Origin: a virus | Direction: 5' to 3' (one strand) | DNA length: 29,135 nucleotides | Virus record (IMG/VR): IMGVR_UViG_3300010885_038082 | Coordinates: 1 to 29,135 of that record | In this document: piece by piece, positions 25,922 through 29,135 of the stretch | How the letters are laid out: the number at the start of each line of letters is the position of its first letter | Position numbering within the stretch: position 1 is the stretch's first letter | Made by a program: the position numbers and the translations under genes | Notes under the pieces: generated by a model | Seen by the model: the letters and a program-made list of their open reading frames with translations, nothing else | Databases searched by the model: none | Told to the model about the DNA's origin: nothing

Positions 25922-26211
25922 ACTTTATTGAAACACACTAACCGCTCTGTTTCTTCTGTATGCCTACAGATTGTATCCATTCGTTTAATACGTTTCAATA
26001 AAGTGTCTAGCTACTCACACCACATGAGCCCTAAACTGAGTGGAACTACTCTGTCTACGTATTTTTACTTTTGGGAAAGGTTAGCGTTCCTCACCTAATG
26101 CGTTCCCGCCACTCCACCACAGAGTACGGATGGTCAATGCACTACACACCTAGCACTTTCTTTGGTGACTGCCCCACCCACTTTATAACGTTAAAGTGTA
26201 AACGGGTTTTT
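25922..26211 (-). ncRNA. Candidate structured noncoding RNA, element 2 (tRNA-Pro to tRNA-Gly)
   Basis: No credible ORF in 290 bases. A perfect 14-base inverted repeat (25921-25934 with 25992-26005) closes a hairpin; five further pairs with G-U form only in minus-strand RNA. It has an inner CTGTA/TACAG stem. GAGTGG (26038-26043) pairs CCACTC (26109-26114) while TACTCTGT (26047-26054) pairs ACAGAGTA (26119-26126): a pseudoknot. CTCA/TGAG (26014-26028) and CACTTTA/TAAAGTG (about 26180-26199) add stems. It is probably cut out of a transcript that also carries tRNA-Pro, the minihelix and tRNA-Gly. Confidence 0.7.
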
Positions 26212-26246
26212 TGGTCGGAGTACAAGGATTCGAACCTTGTACTCTA
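26212..26246 (-). ncRNA. tRNA minihelix: acceptor plus T arm with CCA, no D or anticodon arm
   Basis: TAGAGTA and CAAGG run on directly into TTCGAAT, CCTTG, TACTCCG, A and CCA. This is a tRNA acceptor/T-arm stack of 12 positions (ten consecutive pairs next to the loop, then A/C and U-G) with positions 8-48 missing. It starts three bases after the CCA of tRNA-Pro and ends at the edge of element 2. Either a precise tRNA deletion remnant or a processing signal recognised by RNase P. Confidence 0.75.
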
Positions 26247-26252
26247 AATTGG

Positions 26253-26325
26253 TCTCCCTAGGAGGATTTGAACCTCCACCGCATGGTCCCAAACCATGTA
26301 CGCTACCAGGTTACGCCATAGAGAG
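26253..26325 (-). tRNA. tRNA-Pro(TGG)
   Basis: Acceptor CTCTCTA/TAGGGAG (one U-G), stem CATGG/CCATG, loop TTTGGGA, T stem GGAGG/CCTCC, A73 and encoded CCA. Confidence 0.94.
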
Positions 26326-26351
26326 TTTTTTCTTCCACTCTTTAATGTAAG

Positions 26352-26380
26352 AGTATACTAACTCTTCCACTAAATGTCTA
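26352..26380 (-). promoter_or_regulatory. Sigma-70-type promoter TAGACA-17-TATACT before tRNA-Pro
   Basis: Minus strand: TAGACA 26380-26375, 17-base spacer, TATACT 26357-26352. It would make a transcript of tRNA-Pro, minihelix, element 2 and tRNA-Gly. Confidence 0.6.
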
Positions 26381-26386
26381 TATCTA

Positions 26387-27283
26387 CTATGCCACATGAA
26401 AGTTCAAAATGTCATTTTCTAACAGAAGTTGTCTTACCTGTTCTGTTTCTTCTTTGGTTTGAAATTGTAAAGCAACTTCATCAACTGTTACTTGAGTCAA
26501 TTGACCAATTTTAAGATAACCAAAAGCTATCTTGGGGTCATCAATGTCCAGGCCAAAAAAGTCTTTGCCGCCACGTTGATGATAAAAATCTTTCCACTTT
26601 GAAATGTATGTTTCTTTTACGTCATTGTTCATTGAACCAGGTGTACCAGTAAACCACATTACAACTGATGCTGAATGTGTATGTTGTGGTACAAACTGTT
26701 CCTTGGTGCTGGTTAGATCAGCAGAAGTAAACAACTCTCTTGCGTGTTTTCCAACGTGAGTATAGTGTAATGACAGTTCACCAAACACTGTAAAAGGATT
26801 AAATTTTGTGTAATCTTCATTGTTGATACTGTAATACTCTGTACCACCTTTGTTGAAATCTAAAAACATTTTAAAATTTGAACTGCCATTGGATCTGAAC
26901 TCACCCTTTAACCAATGTATAATATCGTTGTATTCACTGGCCACTTCTTCCATGGGAAGAAACCCACGTACACCCATTTTATATATGTCTGGAAAGTGAA
27001 CATGCATGCGATTTAACGCTTCTAATGCATTTTCTTTGGTAATTGTTTCTTTAACAATAGAACCAGGTAATTCCCTGTTTAAAATGTCTACCAGTTTATA
27101 AAGCTGTAGTATTCTTTTTTCAATCAATACAGTATTATTGGTAGAGTTTTTATGATTCAACGGACATAGATTAGAAACATTCATGCGTTTTATTTCTCTT
27201 GCCCAATTGGACAAAGACTTTACTGTGGTATCAAGATCATAAACTAATTTAACATTGTTGGTAAAGTTTACTTGAAATTTCAT
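26387..27283 (-). CDS. Unknown 298-residue phage protein
   Basis: Soluble protein without signal peptide or membrane segment, starting MKFQVNFTNNVKLVYDLDTT. Two His/aromatic segments (NRMHVHFPDIY and ELSLHYTHVGKHARELF) and a C-terminal glutamate-rich helix stand out, with no known active-site pattern. TTTAAATA lies nine bases before the ATG. It is framed by tRNA genes. No family recognised. Confidence 0.7.
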   Translation of the reverse strand: MKFQVNFTNNVKLVYDLDTTVKSLSNWAREIKRMNVSNLCPLNHKNSTNNTVLIEKRILQLYKLVDILNRELPGSIVKETITKENALEALNRMHVHFPDIYKMGVRGFLPMEEVASEYNDIIHWLKGEFRSNGSSNFKMFLDFNKGGTEYYSINNEDYTKFNPFTVFGELSLHYTHVGKHARELFTSADLTSTKEQFVPQHTHSASVVMWFTGTPGSMNNDVKETYISKWKDFYHQRGGKDFFGLDIDDPKIAFGYLKIGQLTQVTVDEVALQFQTKEETEQVRQLLLENDILNFHVA

Positions 27284-28457: not shown

Positions 28458-29135
28458 AAAAGCATATTGAAACACACTAACTACCTTGGTATGTACTAAG
28501 GTTCAATGAACCGCTACGACCCTATCTTTAATGTGCTTCAATATGCTCTGCATCCCCCGGCGGTAATTATAGTACAGAAAGATATGACGCTATCATACCC
28601 CTCACACGCACCTTCCACCCGCTTCCCGACAGGGACCGTTCTCGCATTGCTAGCGGCCTTTGGGTTCAAAGACTACCACCCGTAGTTGTCACACTACTTC
28701 TCATCGTGTGGGTCACACTATCCGGAGACACCCGGAACGTTCTTTGCTAAGGGGCACAGGAGTGGCTCCAAGTCTTACGTCACGGTTTTTGCGTAACTGC
28801 TCTGCTGTTGTTTAAGAGTAGGCACCGTAGGCCATGGGCCGCTATGCACACTCCCCCTATAAATCTTATAACAAAACACACTGATGTCCTGTAGCTTTAA
28901 CAGGCCTTTCACTATTTAATAATGACGCAGTCACACGTCAATGTGTTTTAGTATAAGGGAGAGCCACGGTTGCAGGACCTAGTGCTTTGTTACCAAAGGA
29001 AGTATCCAGGCGATGTGGCTCTCAAAATAGATGTAGCCGAGGGAGTTGCACCCTGCTAGTCAGCGCCTCCTGTTGCCGGAAGTGCCCGTAACTACTACTG
29101 CTACAAAATTAGGATTAAGCTACTGGTTTCCACAC
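28458..29135 (-). ncRNA. Candidate large structured noncoding RNA, element 3 (continues beyond window)
   Basis: At least 678 bases without a credible ORF, visibly richer in G+C than the genes and full of complementary segments. The 3' hairpin (28461-28471 with 28537-28547, extended by G-U on the minus strand) is homologous to those of elements 1 and 2. Others: TAGCGGCC/GGCCGCTA (28651-28658 with 28837-28844), GAGAGCCAC/GTGGCTCTC (28959-28967 with 29015-29023), CTTTG/CAAAG, ACTAC/GTAGT, TCCGG/CCGGA, TTACG/CGTAA, CCTGT/ACAGG, and a further signature hairpin AAAACACA/TGTGTTTT (about 28874-28949). Size, tRNA neighbour and phage context recall GOLLD or ROOL RNAs; identity not tested. Confidence 0.7.

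Follow-up and report, generated by a model that had tools for sequence, protein, structure and literature searches.

A hairpin behind tRNA-Pro in a phage tRNA array as the probable scar of a decayed tRNA-replacing homing element

A hairpin between tRNA-Pro and element 2

The window, meaning the whole 29,135-base virus record analysed here, carries 26 tRNA genes. On the minus strand, positions 26246-26212 read TAGAGTA-CAAGG-TTCGAAT-CCTTG-TACTCCG-A-CCA; this sequence begins 3 nt (ATT) past the CCA of a tRNA-Pro gene (26250-26325) and abuts a noncoding stretch, element 2 (25922-26211, minus strand). Both the letters and the place between tRNA-Pro and element 2 agree with the original prediction. 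What had been described as a 12-position minihelix is a stable hairpin with a T loop and CCA (-15.2 kcal/mol, z -5.8, equally good shuffles 0/200), but it has 10 bp, the outer two of the 12 positions being U.G and A x C. The locus comprises the following features:

26212..26239, minus strand: putative 3' fragment (28 nt) of a former resident tRNA-Pro(UGG), from the 5' strand of the T stem to CCA; identical to resident/host tRNA-Pro positions 50-77; in locus L215 a complete tRNA-Pro stands here, before element 2
26240..26246, minus strand: TAGAGTA, left end of the hairpin; TAGAGTA, TGGAGTA, TGGAGAA and TGGAATA occur among other carriers
26247..26249, minus strand: ATT linker from the CCA of tRNA-Pro' to the fragment; identical in most Pro carriers
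26250..26325, minus strand: tRNA-Pro'(UGG), complete, the presumed replacement tRNA of a cassette; 70% identity to the resident type
26311..26397, minus strand: putative C-terminal end of an HNH homing-endonuclease-like gene otherwise lost (MWHSRYRHLVEELVYSYIKEWKKKLSMA, then stop), aligning to intact HNH C-termini

The last 28 nt of the hairpin are, letter for letter, the 3' end of Burkholderiales tRNA-Pro(UGG), an identity that excludes chance, and the same holds in more than 100 phage contigs. A 31-mer including the left arm had no match across a genome collection of 84,980 species; the right part, GGTTCGAATCCTTGTACTCCG, had at least 120 matches in the genome collection, mostly in Burkholderiales, and formed the 3' end of tRNA-Pro(UGG) in the contexts of the matches listed. 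Viral stretches with the 27-mer contained a complete tRNA-Pro in 115 cases and lacked one in eight, the window included. Six of these eight have the fragment directly behind a different complete tRNA-Pro(UGG); in L001 the fragment lies further downstream, and in L142 the copy is decayed. Resident phage tRNA-Pro genes are close to bacterial genes (6 of 23 distinct sequences, 39 loci, are identical to one; median identity 99%), while the upstream tRNA-Pro' shares 58-70% identity with the resident type.

The original prediction had the hairpin as a tRNA from which bases 8-48 were removed exactly, a precision that the pairing does not demand. In intact tRNA-Pro, the variable-region sequence GGGGGTC pairs with the acceptor 3' strand at 5/7 positions, so that any 3' half of this tRNA gives 10/12 pairs. 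Consequently, neither an exact loss of bases 8-48 nor an acceptor 5' strand origin of the heptamer preceding the T stem is needed, and a plain 3' tRNA-Pro fragment with a few changes would explain the hairpin. Two parts of the old tRNA could have supplied TAGAGTA, its variable region or its acceptor 5' strand. A permuted or two-piece tmRNA was also considered and dropped, as neither Rfam nor ARAGORN gave a tmRNA match.

Split tRNA genes and nuclease genes in relatives

In relatives, most of the compared loci being metagenomic fragments, the order is 5' tRNA-Pro fragment, homing-endonuclease-like gene, complete but diverged tRNA-Pro', and 3' tRNA-Pro fragment, with the nuclease-like ORF stopping within or just before tRNA' in most carriers. 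The nucleases are of three kinds: HNH in L131, L133, L146 and L307 (Pro), L236 (Leu) and L297 (Ser); endonuclease-VII-like in L329 (Pfam Endonuclease_7, 6.5e-18); and DUF559/Vsr-like in L443 (Leu) and L356 (Pro). The HNH proteins of carriers fall into HNH or homing endonuclease families of PHROGs, which still places in HNH families several that score under the Pfam curated cut-offs. Upstream of the nuclease lies the 5' fragment of the old tRNA, spanning positions 1-16 to 1-39 for Pro, 1-25 for Asp and 1-28 for Leu, with a Ser fragment identified by eye; the Pro fragment stops in the anticodon loop (TTTGGGA) in L355, L358 and L381-L385. The split-tRNA architecture extends to tRNA-Asp, -Leu and -Ser, and to tRNA-Gly and -Thr with one fragment only. 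Neither a nuclease nor a 5' fragment was recognised in carriers L134 and L136. When one HNH family was searched, yielding 60 loci, a tRNA was located -14 to +69 nt from the nuclease stop in 51 and overlapped the nuclease in 38, both hand counts from the table.

Scanned against Rfam at gathering scores, six cassette loci gave no group I or group II intron match, which places the nuclease genes of these loci outside self-splicing introns, as for free-standing homing elements. A group I intron in a tRNA gene was rejected on this result and because the fragments miss part of the anticodon arm. A nuclease stop codon inside a tRNA was likewise dropped as a signature of its own, since other ORFs do the same: in a set of 2183 phage tRNAs, 96 ORFs of at least 90 aa, not only nucleases, have their stop within the 5' portion of a tRNA (at bases 8-10 in 46 cases and at bases 13-15 in 27). 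As an annotation pitfall, ARAGORN merges tRNA-Pro' and the 3' fragment of L131 (also L303) into a false 94-nt tRNA-Ser(CGA).

The window itself contains no intact nuclease and no recognisable 5' tRNA fragment; of the homing-type nuclease gene found in relatives, a C-terminal tail alone is left. The first codons of MWHSRYRHLVEELVYSYIKEWKKKLSMA overlap the end of a 298-aa ORF, and its stop codon occupies a position in tRNA-Pro' shared with L133 and L307. Compared with intact HNH C-termini, the peptide reached a best score of 69 (equally good shuffles 0/500) and aligned with HSRYRHMV (L418) and WHSRYRNVVE (L408). In a control of 1,836 peptides the 99th percentile was 40, and scores of at least 50 were confined to nuclease loci, the window and L001, the other decayed carrier with a nuclease tail. 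These scores and the alignment indicate that the window carries a decayed cassette consisting of the nuclease tail, tRNA-Pro' and the 3' fragment.

Occupied and empty alleles of the same place were found for L376 (nuclease and tRNA-Pro') and L238 (a single full tRNA-Pro), which match on both flanks (left 571 nt, 91%; right 600 nt, 95%). Both homologous flanks end exactly at the tRNA, and L376 retains the first 10 nt of the old one. A second such pair, L391/L143, has shorter flanks. These pairs show that the cassette replaces the resident tRNA. One-sided matches were obtained for L146/L180 (left), L136/L203 (right) and the window/L215 (right); the orthologous place in L203 holds a full tRNA-Pro, and so does L215, with element 2 behind it. 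Since the occupied alleles L376 and L391 have no 3' fragment, the fragment is not obligatory.

Origin of the hairpin and its relation to element 2

Very probably, the hairpin is what remains on the right-hand side of a tRNA-Pro(UGG) gene after a mobile HNH/tRNA-Pro' cassette split it and took over its function, and the best reading of the locus is the scar of a decayed tRNA-replacing homing element. The sequence identity, the architecture, the empty and occupied alleles, the matching anticodons described below and the nuclease tail form its basis. The deletion relic that the original prediction had offered as an alternative survives in outline, with the specification that the tRNA gene in question appears to have been split by a homing-type cassette. 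A relic left by simple deletion in a tandemly duplicated tRNA-Pro, formed without a mobile nuclease, would suffice for the window by itself, where just tRNA-Pro' and the fragment are visible, and for L134/L136, which also have no nuclease. Such an origin is highly improbable in view of the nuclease tail in the window and L001, the relatives of several isotypes with a nuclease and a 5' fragment, and a tRNA-Pro' that is so distant from the resident tRNA (only 58-70% identical). The exact match to the host tRNA 3' end and the inverted-repeat shape would also suit the attP site of a tyrosine integrase targeting host tRNA-Pro, with an inverted repeat round a 7-bp core and 28 bp identical to the host. 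However, no PF00589 integrase domain was found in nine carrier or related records, which may be fragments, and fragments of other isotypes lie beside same-anticodon tRNAs and homing-type nucleases, leaving this option barely any probability.

The original prediction favoured a functional acceptor/T-arm minihelix, at which RNase P and 3' processing would free the 5' end of element 2. In its favour, the hairpin is stable over 10 bp, has a T loop and CCA, and occupies the place where 6 of 10 element-2 relatives have a complete CCA-ending tRNA. Element 2 gave no Rfam match. The phage contigs examined contain at least 10 relatives of it (70-88% identity), of which six stand directly behind a complete tRNA (Thr, Ala, Pro or Gly) and four behind no tRNA. 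A search for the minihelix beside element 2 found it in 0/10 relatives, an outcome that the original prediction itself had named as refuting this role. Moreover, the 3' fragment occurs without element 2 in other phages, where it precedes ORFs or tRNAs, and the hairpin pairing is lost in the cassette copies L358 and L371. L371 and L370 match completely for 1,500 nt downstream and at 96% upstream, yet differ in the fragment, which is unpaired in L371 and deviates there in its distal part; the L358 fragment has a different 3' part. This pattern suits a piece that would be free to change or would be exchanged with recipient tRNA genes. Conservation of a functional minihelix was rejected on similar grounds: the left arm varies while mostly pairing, but L358 and L371 are unpaired, and the halves of intact tRNA-Pro pair at 10/12 positions anyway. 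The hairpin is thus probably no purpose-built RNase P signal, and its proposed role in freeing element 2 is unlikely; in the window, it may have a processing role as a by-product.

Other tRNA-associated stretches were noted alongside element 2. A long noncoding stretch upstream of tRNA-Ala (28460-29135, minus strand), cut by the window end and without an Rfam match, resembles element 2 at its tRNA-Ala-side end (TTAGTGTGTTTCAAT). In L001, L358, L381-L385 and L216, an element of ~140 nt (AGAGCAGCGGATAAGTTACATTATCC...) is located directly behind tRNA-Pro and is possibly another tRNA-following RNA.

Proposed mechanism, known systems and wider occurrence

Returning to the scar of a homing element, the cassette would join two genes, a homing-endonuclease-like HNH gene and a complete, same-anticodon tRNA-Pro' in which the HNH stop codon falls. 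The nuclease would cut the tRNA gene of a co-infecting cassette-less phage in or near the anticodon arm, and repair of the break would copy the nuclease and tRNA' into the cut site. The diverged tRNA' would restore the lost function and should resist cutting, and the leftover 5' and 3' tRNA pieces would serve as homologous sequence in further rounds. Decay in the window would have reduced the nuclease to its C-terminal tail, with tRNA-Pro' and the 3' fragment staying behind; the fragment folds owing to the self-complementarity of the 3' half of tRNA-Pro. From the arrangement of these sequences we infer cutting, resistance of tRNA', homing and the use of fragments as homology arms; by analogy with known elements, the hairpin fragment may formerly have been the right-hand arm.

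The closest known mechanism, taken as an analogy, is that of the WHO elements of Torulaspora and Lachancea yeasts, in which an endonuclease gene is accompanied by a resistant substitute for the portion of the target gene it destroys, and the old FBA1 3' end persists as a fragment acting as a recombination arm (PMC7282813). The phage cassette similarly brings a replacement, the same-anticodon tRNA', and leaves old 5' and/or 3' tRNA fragments. In WHO, however, the target is a protein gene, FBA1, of which only the 3' end is replaced, whereas here it is a phage tRNA gene and a complete tRNA is supplied. The likeness is mechanistic only; we claim neither membership nor common descent. Members of the WHO type would have a nuclease related to WHO/HO, of the intein type with a zinc finger; the families assigned here are HNH, Endonuclease_7 or DUF559.

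Among phage systems, SegB of T4 is, in the cited passages, a free-standing homing endonuclease gene in the tRNA region with a tRNA intergenic region as its reported target, and drives tRNA gene inheritance or amplification (PMC2988022, PMC13096335). It shares with the cassette a nuclease gene within a phage tRNA region, but is GIY-YIG rather than HNH, and those passages do not place it within a split tRNA gene alongside a complete spare tRNA. mobE of Aeromonas phage Aeh1, as portrayed in the cited part of the source, is an HNH homing gene whose insertion divides nrdA in two (PMC2988022). There too an HNH homing gene splits a phage gene; the nrdA parts are thought to reassemble into the enzyme, whereas the split tRNA here would be abandoned and a spare copy supplied, and the same part describes no spare tRNA for mobE. 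The literature searched, with subscription papers mostly outside it, contained no account of a homing element that sits in a split tRNA gene together with a complete spare tRNA of the same anticodon; as this search is incomplete, the novelty is provisional.

A scan of 2,314 phage tRNAs, a set in which Pro is over-represented through locus fetching and some Leu and Ser loci came via a general hairpin pattern, recovered 18 orphan 3' fragments within 70 nt downstream of a tRNA. Isotype and anticodon equalled those of the tRNA immediately upstream in 15/18 (Pro 7, Leu-UAG 3, Ser-UGA 2, and Ser-GCU, Asp-GUC and Gly-GCC), compared with single-isotype frequencies of 2-9%; some of these 15 loci have no recognisable nuclease. 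The other three mismatch in isotype, two of them truncated because the search ended at 70 nt.

Resident phage tRNA-Pro matches the host gene exactly or almost exactly, so the nucleases may also cut the host tRNA gene. We put forward, tentatively and as a possibility we rather doubt, that phage homing elements include a broad class directed at tRNA genes, which compensates for the damage with a spare, uncuttable same-anticodon tRNA, that its nucleases may cut the host tRNA gene as well, and that some phage tRNAs are retained as antidotes to selfish nucleases. For the many, rapidly turning-over tRNA genes of large phages, a mobile nuclease that comes with a replacement for the tRNA gene it destroys would be a concrete selfish route of gaining or swapping tRNAs, and an antidote role, if true, would help account for the size of phage tRNA arrays and how quickly they change. 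Cassette scars would also account for stray orphan fragments of tRNAs and for tRNAs called wrongly in phage genomes.

Among the records of isolated phages that were checked, only Synechococcus phage DSL-LC03 showed such a fragment as expected; in it, a 5' fragment ending in an anticodon-loop-like TTTTG, its Thr origin judged by eye, is followed by an HNH gene overlapping tRNA-Thr(UGU). HNH genes running into tRNAs were clear in Gordonia phages. Sixama and Mareelih share a common tRNA order; Sixama has an HNH gene at tRNA-Leu(UAG) and none at tRNA-Tyr, and Mareelih the reverse, its annotation reading merely similar to HNH. Their tRNA-Tyr genes are 68% identical, while the spacer behind and tRNA-Ala (99%) are nearly the same. 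Since neighbours without HNH (Pro, Asp) differ too, the Tyr contrast is suggestive only. Gordonia phages may offer a laboratory system for HNH-tRNA alleles.

Unusual tRNA-like stretches were also noted in two other loci. In L010 (3720-4020, minus strand), a tRNA-Leu-like gene has a long intron-looking insertion in the anticodon region, and in L296 (8261-8295, plus strand) the acceptor strand of a tRNA-like stretch seemingly lies only ~14 nt from the T arm.
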